DNA of 64,000 bases, taken from Thiothrix subterranea (GTDB lineage: Bacteria; Pseudomonadota; Gammaproteobacteria; Thiotrichales; Thiotrichaceae). Made by a program: the position numbers and the translations under genes. How positions within the stretch are numbered: position 1 is the first letter of the stretch; every line of letters starts with the position of its first letter. The stretch is taken from assembly GCF_016772315.1 (NCBI RefSeq), contig NZ_CP053482.1, positions 3,529,501 through 3,593,500 of the forward strand, in the 5' to 3' direction. Shown here piece by piece: positions 3,851-56,182 of the stretch. The notes under the pieces were generated by a model. The model saw only the letters and a list, made by a program, of their open reading frames with translations, was not told the origin of the DNA and ran no database searches.

Positions 3851-6800
3851 ATGCCTTCCAACAAAACTGATAATACCCAACCTGCTGAATCCCTTGATCT
3901 TACGGCGCAAGTCGTGCCGCCTACGCCTCCTAAACAGCAAGGTCTCAAATTGACGGGTAAAGCCGCTGCCAAACCTGCTCCCAAGCCTAAAGCAGTGGAT
4001 GAAACCCCGATTATTTCCTACCGCCACGGCGAAACCCGCAAGAACAACCCGGAAGTGGGCATGGTCAACGATGCCAATGACCCGGCACAGCCTAAGACTG
4101 AGTGGGCGCATAATCCGCACCTTGCGCCAGAATTGCAGTTTGATTCCAGTCGGGCGGCGGTGGAGCAATTGATTGATGAGGCGCTGGCGAGTGGTGATGA
4201 GGCGGTGATGCGGGAGGCGTTGGCGGAACTCAAGCGGATGCAGTCGCCGTTTTTGAATTGGGCGGGGAAGGCGGAACGTACCAGCTTTGCGGTGGATACG
4301 GTCAGTTTGCATGTGCATGAGCGGATTGATCCGTTGAGTATTTTGTCGGCGTTGCAGCGGGGGATGAAGAACCCCTCACCCCAGCCCTCTCCCTCAAGGG
4401 GCGAGGTAGCGAAGAGGTTTGGTTCTGGTCGGTTTCAGTTTGGGTTGTTTAATGCGCCGTTTGAGAATTTGCCGTTGCGGGATGCGGTGGATTTTTACCA
4501 TCACGATAAGGGGTGGTCGAACCGCTTGGTGGCGGGGGATTCCTTGCTGGTGATGAATTCGTTGTTGCAGAAGGAGAGCATGGCGGGGCAGGTGCAGATG
4601 ATTTACCTTGATCCGCCGTATGGGATTAAGTATGGCTCGAATTTCCAGCCGTTTGTGAACAAGCGTGATGTCAAAGACCGCAAGGATGAGGATTTGACGC
4701 AAGAGCCGGAAATGATCAAGGCGTTTCGCGATACGTGGGAACTCGGCATCCACTCGTATCTCACCTACTTGCGTGACCGCTTGCTGCTGGCGCGTGACCT
4801 GCTCGCCGACAGCGGCTCAATCTTCGTCCAAATCTCCGACGAAAACCTCCACCACGTCCGCGAACTCATGGACGAAATCTTCGGTGTCGATAACGTTGTT
4901 GCGCTCATTACTGTTCAAAAAACATCTGGGCAAACGTCCCGATTTTTATCTGGAACTTGTGATTACTTGGTTTGGTATGCAAAAGATATTGAATACTTAA
5001 AATACCGACAGCCATTGTTATCAAAAGAAATTGGTGGTGCTGGTAGTGCAATGTATCAATTCTTTCAGCTCGACACCGGAGAAGTAAAAAGATTGGGACA
5101 AAAAAATCCGCCAGATGCCGCTAAAGTTTTTCGTTTGGGCGATGTTACTTCACAAAGGCAGGGTCGTGATTCTGGTTTGGGTTCAGCAATGTATTTTCCA
5201 GTGCAAGTAAATGGTAGTGAATTTTATCCGCCAAGTTCACGGGGTTGGACAACAACCTCAGAAGGTATGGAACGGCTTTCAAAAGCTGGAAGGCTTGTCC
5301 CACAAGGTATAAGACTTTCATACAAACGCTTTATTGACGACTTTTCAGCATTCCCGCTAGGAAATAACTGGGTAGATACAGCGGGAGCAAGTGACCGTAT
5401 TTATGTTGTTCAAACGGCAGACAAGGCTGTTGAGCGGTGTATGTTGATGACGACGGAGCCGGGGGATTTGGTGCTTGACCCGACTTGCGGCAGCGGCACA
5501 ACCGCATTCGTGGCAGAAAAGTGGGGGCGACGCTGGATTACCTGCGATACCTCACGGGTAGCCGTAACGCTGGCAAAACAACGCCTGATGACCGCCAGCT
5601 TCGACTACTTCGACCTCAAATACCCGCAAGAAGGCTTGAAAGGCGGCTTCATTTACAAAACCGTCCCGCACGTCACGCTAAAATCCATCGCCAACAACCC
5701 CGAAATCGACCTGATTTACGATAAACTGCATCCGGCGATTGAACAGGCGTTACGGGAACTGAATGCCATGATAAAACGGCCCCCTCCTAAGGGGCAGCTA
5801 CAAGAATGGGATGTGCCGTTCGATTTCCCCGCCGATTGGCCAGAATCCGCCCGCGCCTCATTCGACGCTTTCCACACGGCGCGTCAGACGATGCAACGCC
5901 GCATGGATGACAGCATCGCCGCCAATGCCGGACAAGAAACCCTCTACGACCAGCCGCAAATCGCCAAAGACAAACGGCGCATCACCGGCCCGTTTTCGCT
6001 CGAAGCCGTGCCATTCCCCACCGTGCTATCCCTCAACGATGCCGTGCAACCCACCCAAGCCGACAACAGCGTTGCCCGCAGCGGTGAAACGTCCCGCCAA
6101 ACCCAATGGCGCGACGAACTGATGAAAACCGGCATCCGTGGCAAAAATAAACAAATGCTCAAATTCGCCGAACTCGAAACCTTGCCCGGTACGCGCTACC
6201 TGCACAGCAGCGGCACTCTCGATACCGGCGAGCGCGTGGTGGTCAGTTTCGGTCCCGAACACGCCGCACTCGAACAACGCCAAGTCGAAAATGCCCTGCG
6301 CGAAGCCGGGGAACTGTTCCCGCTGCCGAAAATGATCGTGTTTTGCGCCTTCACCTTCGACCCCGAAGCAGCCAAAGACATCGACGCGACCAAAGGCATC
6401 ACCGCCCTGAAAGCGCAAATGAACACCGACTTGCTCACCGAAGACCTCAAAAAACAACGCGCCAACAACCAAAGTTTCTGGCTCATGGGACAACCCGACG
6501 TAGAAGTGCGCAAACGCAAAGACGGTCAGTACGAAATCGAAGTCCACGGTTTCGACTACTTCGACACCACTAAAGGCGAGTTGCAATCCGGCGGCAAAAA
6601 CCGCATCGCCGTCTGGTCGTTGGATACGGACTACGACAACCGCTCGCTGTTTCCTGCACAAGTTTTCTTTCCGATGGCAGGCAAACAGGACGGCTGGTAT
6701 AAACTCAAGAAAGACATCCGCGCCGAACTCGACGAAACGCGGCTGGATGCGTTCCACGGCACGGTGTCTTTGCCATTTGCGGCGGGCGACCACAAGCGCA

Positions 6801-6862
6801 TTGCCGTCAAAATCGTGGATGACCGTGGGATAGAATCGCTGAAAGTGATGGAGTTGGAGTGA
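3851..6862 (+). CDS. Type III restriction-modification methyltransferase (Mod), adenine-specific
   Basis: 1003-residue beta-class N6-adenine DNA methyltransferase. Motif IV DPPY is at residues 254-257 and the SAM motif DPTCGSGTT at 543-551, the order expected for type III Mod proteins; between them is the target recognition region. The first 50 residues are Pro/Lys-rich and probably disordered. The long C-terminal part (about 600-1003) probably contacts Res. A palindromic repeat arm has entered the frame at about residues 175-186. The recognition region (about 4895-5445) is visibly AT-richer than the flanks, suggesting domain exchange. The stop overlaps the possible GTG start of the next gene. 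Confidence 0.9.
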   Translation: MPSNKTDNTQPAESLDLTAQVVPPTPPKQQGLKLTGKAAAKPAPKPKAVDETPIISYRHGETRKNNPEVGMVNDANDPAQPKTEWAHNPHLAPELQFDSSRAAVEQLIDEALASGDEAVMREALAELKRMQSPFLNWAGKAERTSFAVDTVSLHVHERIDPLSILSALQRGMKNPSPQPSPSRGEVAKRFGSGRFQFGLFNAPFENLPLRDAVDFYHHDKGWSNRLVAGDSLLVMNSLLQKESMAGQVQMIYLDPPYGIKYGSNFQPFVNKRDVKDRKDEDLTQEPEMIKAFRDTWELGIHSYLTYLRDRLLLARDLLADSGSIFVQISDENLHHVRELMDEIFGVDNVVALITVQKTSGQTSRFLSGTCDYLVWYAKDIEYLKYRQPLLSKEIGGAGSAMYQFFQLDTGEVKRLGQKNPPDAAKVFRLGDVTSQRQGRDSGLGSAMYFPVQVNGSEFYPPSSRGWTTTSEGMERLSKAGRLVPQGIRLSYKRFIDDFSAFPLGNNWVDTAGASDRIYVVQTADKAVERCMLMTTEPGDLVLDPTCGSGTTAFVAEKWGRRWITCDTSRVAVTLAKQRLMTASFDYFDLKYPQEGLKGGFIYKTVPHVTLKSIANNPEIDLIYDKLHPAIEQALRELNAMIKRPPPKGQLQEWDVPFDFPADWPESARASFDAFHTARQTMQRRMDDSIAANAGQETLYDQPQIAKDKRRITGPFSLEAVPFPTVLSLNDAVQPTQADNSVARSGETSRQTQWRDELMKTGIRGKNKQMLKFAELETLPGTRYLHSSGTLDTGERVVVSFGPEHAALEQRQVENALREAGELFPLPKMIVFCAFTFDPEAAKDIDATKGITALKAQMNTDLLTEDLKKQRANNQSFWLMGQPDVEVRKRKDGQYEIEVHGFDYFDTTKGELQSGGKNRIAVWSLDTDYDNRSLFPAQVFFPMAGKQDGWYKLKKDIRAELDETRLDAFHGTVSLPFAAGDHKRIAVKIVDDRGIESLKVMELE
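4372..4406 (+). repeat. Single arm of a C-rich palindromic repeat inside mod
   Basis: The 35-nt segment beginning CCCCTCACCCCAGCCC and ending CAAGGGGCGAGG is one arm of the element present as a full inverted pair at 56081-56182, and matches in reverse orientation the copy in recB (13189-13227). It is translated in frame as Pro/Ser-rich residues. Confidence 0.85.
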
Positions 6863-11758: not shown

Positions 11759-14700
11759 ATGCAAACCCTCCACGCCCAAAGCGTCCCCCTCGTTGGGACA
11801 AACCTCATCGAAGCCAGCGCGGGTACGGGTAAAACCTGGACGATTTCATGGCTCTACCTGCGCCTGATTGCGGTATACGGTCTCAAAGTCGACAAAATTC
11901 TGGTCGTCACCTACACCGAAGCGGCCACCGCCGAGTTACGCGCCCGCATCCGCAAACGCCTCGCCGATGCTTTAGCCTATCTGGAACAACGCCCACACGC
12001 CGAAACCTACGAATCGTTGCCCTTAGAAGCGCCGCTCCACGACTGCATCCAACGCCTGCAACTGGCCTTGGTGAGTTTCGACGAAGCGGCGGTATTCACC
12101 ATTCACGGTTTCTGCAAGCGCGTGTTATCCGAAAACGCCTTTGAAGCGCGGATGCCATTTGAAACTGAATTGGTAACGAATGAAGACAATCTGCTCACCG
12201 AATTAACCGACAAATTCTGGTATCAGCATTTCCTCAAACCCGATGCGCTGCATTTACGGCTGTTGCAAAAACGCGGGCTGACCCCGGACGGTTTGCTGGC
12301 AAACGTGCGCAATTTCATTGGCAAACCGTATTTGCACACCGATATTCAGCCCGTCACTACCGAGGCATTTGCGCAACGGCAAAGCATTTTCGAGTCTGCC
12401 TTGCAAGCCTGCCAGCAACATTGGGCGAGTGAACGTGAGGCGATCATTGGCTTATTGCTGGGTGGCGCACTCAACGGCAGCACCTACAGCAAGCGCTATG
12501 TGCCGAATTGGGCGAGTAAACTCGATGCGTATTTTACTAATCCGCTGGAATTGCCGTATGAAACCTTTGAACGCTTTGCCACCACCGCGCTGACCGAAAA
12601 AACCAAGTCCGGCAAAGCCACGCCCCAACACGCTTTTTTCACACAAGTGGATGCCTTACTCGCCGCCCATGACGCGCTGTCGGAAGGCGAACAAGCCGCG
12701 CTGGAATACTTGCGCCTGCAATTGCTGCACCATTTACGCGCCGAATTGCCCGTGCGCAAACAGCAACTCGGCATTCTCACCTTCGATGATTTGCTATTGC
12801 ATTTGCGCGAGGCGTTGGAACAACACCCCGATTTTCCGCCGCGTTTGGCGCTGAAATATCAGGCGGCGTTGATTGATGAGTTTCAGGATACTGACCCGAT
12901 TCAGTACGAGATTTTCGAGCGCATTTACCGCGATAAACCCGAACAGCCGGTGTTTTACGTGGGCGACCCTAAACAGGCGATTTACGGGTTTCGGGGGGCG
13001 GATATTTACACCTACCTCAAAGCCGCGCACAGCACGTCGGCGCACTACACGTTGCAACACAATTTCCGGTCGCACCCCGATTTGCTGCAAGCGCTCAACC
13101 ACCTGTTCGCGCAATCCGACCAACCGTTCCGCAGCGACATCCGCTACGAAGCCGTCAGCGCCGGTAAACCACAACACGACATCTTCCTCCCCTCGCCCCT
13201 TGAGGGAGAGGGGCTGGGGGTGAGGGGTATTTCCCCGCTTCGTTTCTGGGATTGGAACACACTCGATGAAGGCTACAACAGCCCCGCCGTACAAGAACGC
13301 ATTGCCGAAGCCGTCGCCAACGACATTGCCCGCCTCTTAAACGCGGGTCGCGAAGGTATTGCCCGAATCGGTGAACGCCCCGTAGAAAGCCGCGACATTG
13401 CGGTACTCGTGCGCGAAAACCAACAGGGCGAACAAATCAAACGCGCTTTGCTGGCTCGCGGCATTGCCAGCGTACAAAAATCACGCGACAGCATTTTCTG
13501 TACCCGCGAAGCCAGCGATTTTCGCGCCGTATTGCGGGCGATTGCCGAACCGGGCAATGAAACCGCCCTCAAGCAAGCGCTCGTGACCGAACTGTTTGGT
13601 TTCACCGCCGAAGATTTATTCGCGCTGGATGAAACCCCAGCGCTCTTGGAAGCCGAACTCGAAGCCTTCCACCGTTGGCATAAAACCTGGCATTCGCAAG
13701 GTTTCATGCCGATGTTTCGCCAGTGGATGTTGCAACGCCAACGCTACGCGCATTTGTTAGCCTTGGCAGATGGCGAACGTCGTCTCACCAATTTGTTGCA
13801 TTTGGCGGAACTCATCCACACCGAAAGCCGCTTGCAAGGGCATGGGATGCACGCGCTGATTCGTTGGTTACAACAAAAAGCCGAAGCGGGTGAACAAGAC
13901 GAAGCGCACGAACTCCGCCTAGAAAGCGATGAAAACTTGGTGCAAATTACCACCATCCACAAAAGCAAGGGGCTGGAATACGGCATTGTGTATTGCCCGT
14001 ATTTGTGGGCAGAACGTGACGCGAAAACCAGCACTTGGTTCAGTTGGTACGACCGTGACACCGAAGCGGGCATTTCGCGCCTGCAAGCCGAAGCCTTTGC
14101 CAGTGACGCGGCGCTTAAGTGTTTCCGCGAAGCCGAACAAGCCGAAAGTTTACGTTTGCTGTACGTCGCGCTCACTCGTGCTAAATACCATTGCACCATT
14201 GCGCTGGTCAGCGGGCGCATTAACCAATTCGACTACTATTCGGCACTCGGTTGGCTGTTATTCGGCAAGTTACCGCAGGGCAAGGCAATTCTCGGCAAAT
14301 TGCGCAAAGACGGGATGCAACCCGATGAACGCCAACGTTTGATGCACACGCAATTAGCGCAGTTGGTGGAACAATCAGCAGGCGGCATCAGCCATGAAGT
14401 CTTGCCCGTTGAGGAAACGCGGGTGTGTTATCAAGCCGACAGCGGTGAATGGCAACCCAGCATTCGCCGCTACCAGCCACGTTACGTGCCGGTTCCCAAA
14501 GTCGGCAGTTTCAGTGGTTTGACATCTGGCAAGGATGATGAACGCCCAGACTACGATACGCTGGTGTTCGCTTCGACTTCGCTCAGCGAACGAAACTCTC
14601 CGGTCGCTGAACGGGGTAGCGTGGTCGCTGAGCGCAGTCGAAGCGAAGCATTCCCACGCGGCGCAAAAGCCGGAAGCTGTTTGCACAAAATGCTGGAAGA

Positions 14701-15361
14701 ACTCGATTTCACCCAAGCGCTTGCCCCCCAGCAGGACAGCGTATTGCTACCCGCGTTGAAACGCCACGGCTTGCCCGAACGCTGGCTACCCGCCGGTGTG
14801 CAACTGCTGGAAAATACCCTCAATACACCGTTGCCAGCCGTTAATCTGCGTTTGTGCGATTTGCCCAAAGCGCAACGCCTTGATGAACTCGAATTCTATT
14901 TTCCGGTAGAACGCTTGCGTCTGAAACCGCTGCAAACCTTGTTGCACCATCACCTTCCCGCCGAATGGGACGCCATTCACAGCGCTATCGACAAGCTGAA
15001 GTTCAATGATTTAACGGGTTATATGAAGGGCTACATCGACTTGGTATTTGCCGCCGACGGGCAGTATTTTGTGGTGGATTACAAGTCGAATGATCTGGGC
15101 GCAATGCCTGCCGATTACCGTTTCGAGGTGATGCAAGAGGCGATGGCGGAACACCATTATTACCTGCAATATCTCATCTACTGTTTGGCGTTACACCGCT
15201 ATTTGCAACAGCGGTTGCCGGGGTATGACTGGCAACAGCATGTTGGTGGGGCGTTGTATTTGTTTTTGCGGGGCATGACACCGGAACAGGCTGGCTCCGG
15301 CGTATTCTTCCACAAACCAACGCTTGCCTTGATTGAGGCGTTGGATCACTTAATCCAGTAA
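11759..15361 (+). CDS. recB: Exodeoxyribonuclease V subunit beta (RecB)
   Basis: 1200 residues, close to the E. coli length once two repeat-derived insertions are discounted. UvrD-type helicase motifs are present: [19 protein letters not shown] near the N-terminus, [48 protein letters not shown] and [11 protein letters not shown]. The C-terminal nuclease retains SCLHKML, YIDLVF and VVDYKSN, the His/Asp/Asp-Lys catalytic set. It starts 3 nt after the res stop and so appears to be the last gene of the RM operon. No recC or recD is in this window. Its 3' end overlaps the convergent TSUP gene by 16 nt. Confidence 0.93.
13189..13227 (+). repeat. G-rich palindromic repeat arm inside recB
   Basis: Begins CCCCTCGCCCCTTGAGGGAG and ends GGGGGTGAGGGG; 39 nt, i.e. 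13 codons. It is the reverse-complement form of the arm in mod and equals the right arm of the element at 56081-56182. It is translated within a loop after the [10 protein letters not shown] motif without disturbing the frame. Confidence 0.85.
14567..14647 (+). repeat. REP-like inverted repeat inside recB
   Basis: Left arm 14567-14591 (TTCGCTTCGACTTCGCTCAG...) and right arm 14623-14647 are inverted copies with 23 of 25 positions matching. It is translated as a Ser/Glu/Arg-rich linker between the helicase part and the nuclease domain. This TTCGACT-CGCTCAGCG palindrome type is known as a dispersed repeat in many bacteria. Confidence 0.8.
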
Positions 15362-16133: not shown

Positions 16134-16898
16134 TTAGTGCGGTAAGTCGCGGGCGTATTCGAGCAAGACCGTTTCTAAACGGGCAAACGCTTCGGGTTTG
16201 GGGCTAGACCCCGGAAAACTTTGGTAGACCAGTTGCTTTTCCTTGCCATCGAGCATGATGTCTAGGGTTTGGGGGTAATGGCGTTGACCAGCTTTTGCAC
16301 CACCAAAGGTATCGCGTTTGAGGGTAAGTGCGCCACTTTCTTTGATCACGGCATACAGATTGTCGAGATCTTCAGGGCGCAAGGCGAGGCTGATGGTTTT
16401 AAGATCCTCGGCTTGCCAGCAAGGGGTGCTTTGTACCCATTGGGCGCAACGTCCATCAGTATCTTCAAAATAGGTGTAGCTGAGGATGCCGTTTGTCAGT
16501 GTGATTTCGGTGTAGAAGCTTTCACCGGTGGCGCGGAAACGCAGCGAAAAGTCACTGCTCGGTAGGGTTTGCTGGGCGAGGTTGGGAATTTTTAGGGTAT
16601 TGGGTTTTTCGGGAGGCGTAGGCATGGTTTCCAGCTCCGGCGTTGGTTCTGGCGGTGGTAGAGACGCAAGATTTTGCGTCTCTACGGTGGTGGGATTATT
16701 GGAGAGTGGTTGTGTATTCACCGTGGTGGAATGATCGGGTTGCAACTTGTCAGCGTCGGGAATGATGACAGGTTCTACGATTGATTCGACAGGGGGCGTT
16801 GGCGGTGGGGCGGCATCACGTTTTTCGCAACCATTCAACGGTAGCAACGTTAGCAAAAGCAGGCAGTAAGCAGAGGGGATGAAGTTAGCTTGTTTCAT
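16134..16898 (-). CDS. Hypothetical lipoprotein with Pro-rich linker
   Basis: 254 residues. A type II signal peptide ends with the lipobox LNGC at about residues 21-24. A long Pro/Thr-rich linker (about 28-105) joins it to a C-terminal globular domain with [23 protein letters not shown]...CWQAE (a likely disulfide) and [13 protein letters not shown]. No family is recognised. Part of the linker is encoded by a 28-bp palindrome (16658-16685). It lies between suhB (14 nt) and the TSUP gene (23 nt) on the same strand, so probably one transcript. Confidence 0.7.
16658..16685. repeat. Short perfect palindrome inside the lipoprotein gene
   Basis: GTAGAGACGCAA (16658-16669) and TTGCGTCTCTAC (16674-16685) around a 4-nt loop. 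The same type of GTAGAGACGC palindrome is a familiar dispersed element in cyanobacteria and some gammaproteobacteria. Here it is read in frame in the linker. Confidence 0.75.
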
Positions 16899-27911: not shown

Positions 27912-29049
27912 TACCAATCAGTGCCATAAAATGGCTTTCTAGTAATCAAGTAAATATGGTTAACTGACGGTCAATAAAGGCAACTATGAGTAATGTATGA
28001 CATTAAAAATCACCTTCACTGATGATGAGGTAGCGGAGCTGTTCTACTGGAAGGAGCGCCACCCTCATCCCAGAGTCCGTAAGAAAATGTCCGTGCTGTA
28101 CCTGAAATCCCAACAGTTGACGCATAAGGAAATCAAACGATTGGAAAGGATTACAGAAGCCACGCTGCTTGCCTACCTAAACGCCTACCAACAACCTAAC
28201 GGTTTAGAAGCTCTTAAAGAAATACGCTTCAATAAACCAAAGAGTGATTTGATGGCATATAAAGACAAGATTGAGACCTATTTTCGTGAATATCCACCCG
28301 CGACCAGCAAGGCAGCAGCCGCCAAGATTGAGGAGCTGACAGGCATCAAACGCAGCGAGGACAGGGTACGTATCTTTATGAAGAAAATAGGGATGGACAT
28401 CCGTAAAGTGGGGATGATACCCGCCAAAGCTGATGTGGAAGCACAAGAAAAGTTCTTGGAAAATGAACTTAAACCGCGCATTCAAGAGGCTCAAGAAGGT
28501 AAACGCGCCCTTTTTTTGTCGATGCCGCCCACTTCGTTTTAGCACCGTTTCTGGGATTTTTGTGGTCATTTTCCCGCGTATTCATCAAAGCGCCCTGTGG
28601 TCGACAACGTTACAACGTATTGGGCGCACTCAATGTGATAACACTGCAACTGATCACCCTCACTAACGATACCTATATCAACGCTGGCAGCGTGTGTGAA
28701 TTATTGGAAAAAATTGCAGCGTTAGCACTCAAAATACCGATCACGTTGGTCTTGGATAATGCCAAGTATCAACGCTGTGAAGCCGTGTTTGCCTGTGCGA
28801 AAAGGCTCAATATTGAACTATTGTTTTTACCGACCTATTCACCCAACCTCAATCTGATTGAACGGTTGTGGAAGTTCGTCAAGAAAAAATGCTTGTACTC
28901 GAAGTACTATGATAAGTTTCCCGCTTTCAAGTCGGCCATCACCAACTGTCTCGACAAGCTGGATACTGATCACAAGAAAGAACTGGCACAGTTGATGACA
29001 ACAAACTTTCAAACCTTTAAAAATGTTCAAGTCTTGGCGCTGTGAGGTA
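27912..29049 (+). mobile_element. IS630-family insertion sequence, complete
   Basis: 1138 bp. Terminal inverted repeats TACCAATCAGTGCCA (left) and TACCTCACAGCGCCA (right, reverse complement) agree at 11 of 15 positions. It is flanked by TA (27910-27911 and 29050-29051), the target duplication typical of the Tc1/IS630 group. It carries one transposase in two overlapping frames. Confidence 0.92.
27997..29045 (+). CDS. IS630-family transposase, made by -1 frameshifting
   Basis: The first frame (27997-28542) encodes the helix-turn-helix and linker region; the second, up to 29045, the catalytic domain. At 28511-28517 a run of seven T in CTT TTT TTG allows a -1 slip that joins ALFF to VDAAHFVLAPFLG, restoring the first catalytic Asp. 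The second Asp is in LVLDNAKYQ and the Glu in LPTYSPNLNLIERLWKF. Frame-split transposases are common in this family, so the element is probably functional rather than decayed. Confidence 0.85.
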
Positions 29050-31002: not shown

Positions 31003-31644
31003 ATGCACGCACCACAGCTTATTCTAGCGTCTGCCTCACCCCGTCGTTGCGAATTGCTGGCGCAAATTGGCATTCACTTTGTGGTGCAAACAGCGGATGT
31101 GGATGAAACGCCATTGTTGGGGGAATCAGCAGCAGCGTTGGTAAAACGTTTAGCTATCCTCAAAGCAGAAACGGTTTGGAATGCTAAGCAGGAAGGAAGA
31201 GGGCGACCGCCGGTCGCCCCTACCGATGATTTGCGTAGGGGCGACCGGCGGTCGCCCTCTTCCCCTGTTTTGGGTGCAGACACGCTAGGCATTCTCAATG
31301 GTGAATTGCTGGTAAAGCCCCGCGATTTCGCCCACGCGCAACACATGCTGCGGCAAATGTCGGGGCAAACGCACGAAATTCTCACGGCGGTGGCGTTAAC
31401 CACTGCGACCGGCACACAAGTAGCGCTAAGCCACAACTTGGTTAAGTTCCGTACCATCACAGATTCCGAAATTCTGGCATACTGGGCAAGTGGTGAACCA
31501 CACGACAAAGCCGGGGCGTATGCGATTCAAGGGATTGGCGCAGTTTTTATCGAAAAGCTCGAAGGTTCTTACTCTGGGGTCATGGGTTTGCCGCTGTTTG
31601 AAACGGCGCAACTGCTGGCAACGGCAGGCATTAATACCTTATAA
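31003..31644 (+). CDS. maf: Maf/YhdE nucleoside triphosphate pyrophosphatase with in-frame repeat insertion
   Basis: 213 residues; hydrolyses dTTP/UTP and modified nucleotides. LASASPRRCELLAQIG, DVDETPL, VLGADTLGILNGELLVKPRD, SGQTHEILTAVAL and EPHDKAGAYAIQGIGAVFIEKLEGSYSGVMGLP are the family blocks. Between the ETVWNAKQ helix and VLGADT lies an extra Arg/Pro/Asp-rich stretch of 23 codons encoded by a 69-bp perfect palindrome; without it the protein would have the usual length of about 190. The catalytic residues are on both sides and intact. Confidence 0.93.
   Translation: MHAPQLILASASPRRCELLAQIGIHFVVQTADVDETPLLGESAAALVKRLAILKAETVWNAKQEGRGRPPVAPTDDLRRGDRRSPSSPVLGADTLGILNGELLVKPRDFAHAQHMLRQMSGQTHEILTAVALTTATGTQVALSHNLVKFRTITDSEILAYWASGEPHDKAGAYAIQGIGAVFIEKLEGSYSGVMGLPLFETAQLLATAGINTL
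31195..31263. repeat. 69-bp perfect inverted repeat inside maf
   Basis: Arms 31195-31223 and 31235-31263 are 29-bp perfect reverse complements (starting GGAAGAGGGCGACCGCC) around an 11-nt spacer. The core GACCGCCGGTC is itself palindromic. Total length is exactly 23 codons. Confidence 0.95.
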
Positions 31645-56080: not shown

Positions 56081-56182
56081 CCCCTCACCCCAACCCCTCT
56101 CCCTCAAGGGGCGAGGGGCTAAGAGCTTATTTTTCTTGCTCCCCCTCGCCCCTTGAGGGAGAGGGGGCTGGGGGGTGAGGGG
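56081..56182. repeat. C/G-rich MITE-like inverted repeat between queE and the QueD-like gene
   Basis: Left arm 56081-56118 begins CCCCTCACCCCAACCCCTCT; right arm 56141-56182 is its reverse complement with a few differences, ending GGTGAGGGG. About 102 bp. Single arms of the same element occur inside mod (4372-4406) and recB (13189-13227). Confidence 0.9.

Follow-up and report, generated by a model that had tools for sequence, protein, structure and literature searches.

A REPIN inside maf of Thiothrix subterranea: a probable case of palindrome exchange among a few protein linkers of the genus

How does a perfect 69-bp palindrome come to lie in frame in the middle of a gene, and why there? The question is raised by maf in Thiothrix subterranea, in a 64,000-nt stretch of DNA that was analysed as a whole (the window; its position 1 is 3529501 on the contig of this 4.08-Mb genome, hereafter G000). 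The gene and the parts of its palindrome are as follows.

31003..31644, plus strand: maf (Maf-family nucleotide pyrophosphatase), 213 aa, with insert; Pfam Maf 189.9 bits, TIGR00172 168.5
31195..31263: REPIN, an inverted REP doublet of 69 bp, 23 codons in frame, with perfect arms, of a dispersed family
31195..31200: outer foot GGAAGA, pairing with TCTTCC at 31258-31263
31201..31223, minus strand: left REP, whose minus strand reads GTAGGGGCGACCGGCGGTCGCCC (G000:C1:3560701-3560723:-)
31224..31234: spacer of 11 nt, CGATGATTTGC
31235..31257, plus strand: right REP GTAGGGGCGACCGGCGGTCGCCC (G000:C1:3560735-3560757:+)
31258..31263: outer foot TCTTCC, partner of GGAAGA

An earlier note on this DNA described a perfect palindrome forming a 23-codon insert in Maf directly ahead of the VLGADT block, and this description holds in full. 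The two 29-nt arms (31195-31223 and 31235-31263) are 100 % complementary, with 11 nt between them; the insert translates to GRGRPPVAPTDDLRRGDRRSPSS, directly N-terminal to PVLGADT, and the net gain relative to the insert-free Maf orthologue of T. caldifontis (190 aa) is exactly 23 codons. The very stable mRNA hairpin which the note expected is also borne out by prediction, the insert RNA folding at -72 kcal/mol compared to a mean of -28.25 for 200 shuffles (z -13.8). Perfect arms of at least 12 nt have a mean of 0.0 in codon-shuffled ORFs of five samples. Short palindromes show no excess in G000 coding DNA at an arm length of 9 (16 observed, 18.3 expected); in the other samples the excess is small at short arms and is located in the long ones.

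The host protein is a genuine member of the Maf family by profile (cut-offs of 27 bits for Pfam Maf and 117.15 for TIGR00172), by fold and by its conserved residues, with S10, R14, R15, E35, K54, D93, K105 and Q176 invariant across 15 Maf sequences. Genes matching nadD and rlmH lie upstream, and one matching ribonuclease G downstream. An AlphaFold2 model built from 15 sequences has a mean pLDDT of 85.6 and finds its closest PDB structure in YhdE (4p0e), while residues 73-83, between helix 43-63 and strand 89-98, fall below 50. According to this model, the insert would form a surface loop between the helix and the GADT-bearing strand, and Maf probably tolerates it as a disordered loop of 23 residues. 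The whole fold and the conserved residues are like those of the Maf/YhdE nucleotide pyrophosphatases (PDB 4p0e, 4oo0, 1ex2), from which the Thiothrix protein differs by the 23 residues before GADT; Maf orthologues of other genera, 8 in one alignment and 11 in another, lack them. Beside the maf cluster, two adjoining ORFs at 27997-29045 on the plus strand have the appearance of an insertion sequence split in two: the first has a weak HTH_33 match, while the second carries a DDE_3 transposase domain.

The insert is a REPIN, made of two GTAG-tagged REPs in inverted orientation. Both sides carry GTAGGGGCGACCGGCGGTCGCCC, a palindromic unit in the 20-40 bp range with a GTAG foot, and the two units enclose a short spacer and form one hairpin. 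The unit is dispersed and repeated: the 69-bp sequence gives 91 BLAST matches in G000 (both strands counted), and the pattern GTAGGGGCG-N(6-14)-CGCCC 94 matches, falling into 54 clusters, compared to a single match for the reversed pattern. Feet similar to GGAAGA/TCTTCC are present in many of the 28 G000 doublets. The extragenic location implied by the name REP is missing, as the insert lies inside an ORF; however, this attribute is not strict, and intragenic REPs are among those listed in the part of PMC3733652 drawn upon here. The same pattern is found in 16/16 Thiothrix genomes, at 1 to 114 matches per genome, with the reversed control reaching up to 5 in G002, G004, G013 and others. The earlier note had missed that the insert is one copy of a dispersed mobile-element family, and that related species have other palindromes in this loop.

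The note had proposed that the insert be looked for in close relatives, and it is there. Among the 16 genomes, G009 carries it at the same maf codon, with 2 changes in the 69 nt and 28 in the other 570 nt. The alignment thus indicates that the insert predates the split between G000 and G009. Seven further genomes hold different palindromes in the same loop: type B, TCCCTTCGAC..GCTCAGGGAAC, in G003, G005 and G007, and type A2, GTAGGGGCGTATTGCATACGCCC or close variants, in G001, G011, G013 and G015. No recognised element was found in the maf loop of the remaining 7/16 genomes. The perfection of the arms had been taken as a sign of a young insertion, or of selection or gene conversion acting on the hairpin. 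This is not supported: since 15 of the 28 REPIN doublets of G000 are without mismatch over 27-nt arms, and since the insert is older than the G009 split, no special force is needed to account for two intact arms, and gene conversion becomes superfluous as their cause in maf. Perfect inverted repeats trouble assembly, and the earlier note had named an assembly artefact as the finding that would overturn it. Because a second genome carries the same insert with substitutions of its own, and since the ORF is intact in both and the conserved residues are preserved, an artefact or a pseudogene can for all practical purposes be set aside.

In G000, elements of this kind are also present in other genes. 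By our reading of a domain scan of 30 ORFs that overlap such clusters, 14 of the 54 GTAG clusters and 7 of the 13 type B clusters (13 matches) either interrupt a Pfam domain or separate two domains of the same ORF; some of the others are N-terminal, or the ORF around them matches nothing in Pfam. The GTAG hosts are Mfd, an Mfd-like ORF, MlaE, a molybdopterin oxidoreductase, PolA, XdhC, ArgS, NadE, TmcA (twice), 6-phosphogluconolactonase, a CobB-like protein, an ASCH-helicase ORF and Maf; type B is hosted by a methyltransferase, HypD, a TnpB-like ORF, Fmt, a CobQ-like protein, an MFS protein and MetG. In an unselected 400 kb of G000, ORFs of at least 150 aa contain 15/25 of the type A-G elements. 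The corresponding figures are 4/6 in G015, no element in G008, and one element, not inside an ORF, in 80 kb of G013. Counted by ORF, an internal element is held by 12/305 in G000, 2/289 in G015, 0/225 in G008 and 0/61 in G013.

The window itself contains several other palindromes. A type E copy at 4384-4408 lies in a 1003-aa ORF (3851-6859, plus strand) about 60 residues ahead of its N6_N4_Mtase domain. A 1200-aa UvrD-like helicase/PD-(D/E)XK ORF (11759-15358, plus strand) holds two: a type E palindrome at 13189-13213 (residues 476-484) and, separating UvrD_C from the nuclease domain near residues 936-944, an inverted doublet resembling type B at 14567-14647. Another GTAG-footed repeat, the palindrome GTAGAGACGCAAAATCTTGCGTCTCTAC, is internal to a 254-aa ORF on the minus strand (16137-16898) which has no match in Pfam or NCBIfam, and a type E inverted doublet at 56094-56166 has perfect 25-bp arms 23 nt apart.

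The same positions are occupied again and again across the genus. The linkers of maf, argS, nadE, polA and cobB, the last four picked from genes with an insert in G000, were compared over 16 genomes, and an element with a score of at least 15 occupies 60/80 gene-by-genome cells. Leaving out G000 and G009, 50/70 cells are occupied, 49 of them by another type than that of G000 and 31 by elements that are not GTAG REPs. Elsewhere in the same ORFs only 4/1191 control windows reach a score of 15, all four in argS. The five linkers, in the above order, hold 3, 6, 5, 4 and 5 palindrome types; the linkers themselves served to define types C-G, of which C is dispersed independently in 15/16 genomes, while in the unselected samples E and F occur, G has 2 copies and D 0. 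All five linkers are filled in G015 and four in G013. Two further oddities concern these genes: nadE of G007 has one TAG within its genome-search match, and G000 contains a second, C-terminal ArgS-like fragment (G000:C1:1451387-1451914) with 88 % identity to residues 426-594.

The palindromes differ even between close relatives. Parsimony requires 41 family changes on the concatenated tree and 6, 8, 9, 8 and 9 on the genes' own trees, i.e. 40; several nodes of the genus tree have low support (40-67). G003 and G012 differ at all five linkers with genes 90-96 % identical, and in the polA group of G000, G009, G005, G010 and G002, whose compared pairs are about 94-95 % identical, four different states occur. 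Shuffling the labels gave equally low counts in 331 of 1000 trials for nadE, 155 for polA, 351 for cobB, 2 for argS and 33 for maf; phylogenetic clustering of the families is weak for the first three and present for argS and maf. Import of whole linkers from another species by recombination was considered and rejected for the polA cases compared, where the flanks of swapped linkers resemble the nearest relative and not the species with the same palindrome: G002 (type F) and G010 (type D) are 96/93 % identical in the flanks, compared to 78/73 % for G002 and G007, both of type F. Flank identity dips in some other pairs, as between G003 and G012 in maf (73/73 % vs 90 % for the whole gene) and in the right flank of nadE (87 % vs 94 %).

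In argS, the elements may have been altered in place. The REPINs of G000/G009, G012 and G006 share their junctions and an 8-nt spacer, GGNNGATG, which recurs in only 1/36 doublets outside argS, and their stems are of three types (AAT, TAT and ACC, respectively), each internally matched. In cobB, the close relatives G011 and G015 have the same doublet in the coding linker with its 9-nt spacer inverted (GATCAGAGG vs CCTCTGATC). Moreover, the stem types of the two sides mismatch in 6/36 doublets, which are possible conversion intermediates.

REPINs are thought to be moved by RAYT transposases, and candidate genes are present. In G000 a 210-aa RAYT-like ORF (G000:C1:2626045-2626674) lies amid six A1 REPs, the stem type of the maf insert, and scores 68.8 bits on NF047646 (cut-off 80). 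Similar ORFs are found in G009 (two, amid A5 and A1 REPs), G006 (amid A1) and G011 (amid A2). The five ORFs score 64.6-70.5 bits, under the curated cut-off, which is exceeded by another ORF in 3/16 genomes; a genome search of G000 with Pfam Y1_Tnp gave no match at E 0.001. PNHFH (PNHIH in one G009 ORF) and QRNYWEH are visible by eye in six aligned RAYT-like ORFs, and we take them to correspond to the HUH motif and the catalytic Tyr of RAYT proteins, the residues' role being putative. At the DNA level, the ORFs of G011, G006 and one of G009 contain a REP of their own type after the strand PNHFHxIV; those of G000 and G010 and the other of G009 have only a similar peptide at this internal place. 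By analogy with known REPIN biology, both the mobilisation of the Thiothrix REPINs and their dispersal would be the work of these RAYT-like proteins.

We consider it highly probable that the maf insert is a REPIN in a tolerated Maf loop and one case of a genus-wide exchange of palindromes in few linkers. A non-autonomous miniature element, of a kind that RAYT (HUH/tyrosine) transposases are believed to mobilise, would have landed in the maf surface loop with a stop-free frame and a length divisible by three, and would have been in place before G000 and G009 diverged. In Thiothrix, palindromic repeats of at least ten sequence types lie in frame within linkers of proteins, and a small number of these linkers would have lost one palindrome and gained another, over and over, between species that are close relatives. 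That palindromes survive only where frame and fold tolerate them is supported by these data, which also suggest that occupied sites are re-used by new elements. We would attribute the recurrence to a small set of tolerant linkers, combined with the insertion of new elements into older palindromes or the conversion of the latter.

Tolerance alone is one alternative. Elements might land everywhere, nearly all genic hits being lost, and recurrence would arise because linkers able to accept extra residues are few. This could well be correct, although we put its chances somewhat short of even. The 69-mer has two of three frames open on either strand, the inserts are mostly between Pfam domains or in loops, and 14/54 GTAG clusters and 7/13 B elements, in the 30 ORFs scanned, are inside or between domains of one ORF. 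However, the contrast in G015 between about 2/289 ORFs and 5/5 tested linkers is so steep that the tolerant linkers would have to be very few, and independent landing predicts something other than the three argS REPINs with both junctions and an unusual spacer in common but different stems. These same argS elements favour the view that occupied linkers receive new palindromes or have their stems rewritten from the resident REP family, as do the cobB doublet with its inverted spacer, the doublets with unlike stems and the REPs of own type at one internal place in three RAYT-like genes. Against it, stem conversion alone cannot turn a GTAG REP into one of the non-GTAG types B, C, D, E, F and G, the previous occupant has left no visible trace in most swaps, and site-specific insertion could mimic shared junctions; we regard it as a tentative possibility. 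Its fullest version, in which linkers are long-lived landing pads where elements enter or overwrite old palindromes, REP stems are rewritten to the resident type as in argS, and the RAYT gene has a site of this kind too, filled with its own REP, is a shade more doubtful still.

A function of the hairpins themselves, with an mRNA structure at a domain border slowing the ribosome to aid folding, appears very improbable. It would fit the very different sequences at one site which can all form a hairpin, the extreme stability of that of maf and the many sites that are domain borders. However, 20/80 cells are without a recognised element, including in close relatives of occupied genomes, and the two changes in the G009 maf insert both break pairs, are uncompensated and weaken the predicted fold of the linker from -74.4 to -63.8 kcal/mol.

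Parts of this picture are known from other bacteria. Like the REPINs of Bertels and Rainey (2011, PMC3116915), as described in the portions used here, those of Thiothrix are dispersed, hairpin-forming inverted REP doublets with a short spacer, and REPs of matching type lie next to a RAYT-like gene. In that work, however, the sequences count as extragenic, with 14 of the 1,067 most abundant 16-mers overlapping genes, whereas 15/25 type A-G elements in 400 kb of G000 are inside ORFs of at least 150 aa. In the sections of Di Nocera et al. (2013, PMC3733652) considered, GTAG REPs and their dimers are reported in frame in genes, with dimers of 20-30 aa suggested to lie in linkers or loops. Among the hosts are DNA polymerase I and tRNA synthetases, and at about one site of recB different REPs are present in X. 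campestris and X. oryzae. Thiothrix differs by up to six palindrome types per linker genus-wide, by swaps between close relatives and by several types being non-GTAG; the text of PMC3733652 has 0 occurrences of Thiothrix or Gammaproteobacteria. The palindromic elements of Rickettsia are likewise mobile, palindromic and in frame in unrelated protein genes; by their description in passages of PMC10969869 and PMC3733652, they are set apart by a length of about 150 bp, a conserved peptide and an obligate intracellular lineage. Intragenic REPs, REP dimers of 20-30 aa and one same-site recB pair are thus known (PMC3733652, same sections). A literature search brought up no work that treats palindromes or REPs within genes of Thiothrix, nor any on one linker with several palindrome families, and the subject is untreated in the accessible portions of a comparative genome paper on Thiothrix (PMC8570282) and of PMC2884548. 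A linker set with serial exchange of unrelated palindromes across one genus is therefore apparently new within the literature searched.

REPs are named extragenic, and here a free-living genus carries them, together with other palindromes, in frame in core proteins (Maf, ArgS, NadE, PolA, CobB and others). With different palindromes at one spot in related species, some few of the linkers resemble landing sites that are used over and over again. If they are indeed landing pads, these proteins would keep exchangeable linkers dictated by DNA, with a turnover faster than that of their flanks. Since sister species with genes 90-97 % identical have empty, filled and differently filled linkers, the genus is a natural experiment, in which it can be asked whether RAYT-linked palindromes target existing hairpins and whether coding hairpins slow ribosomes, and which also bears on how mobile DNA may write new protein linkers.
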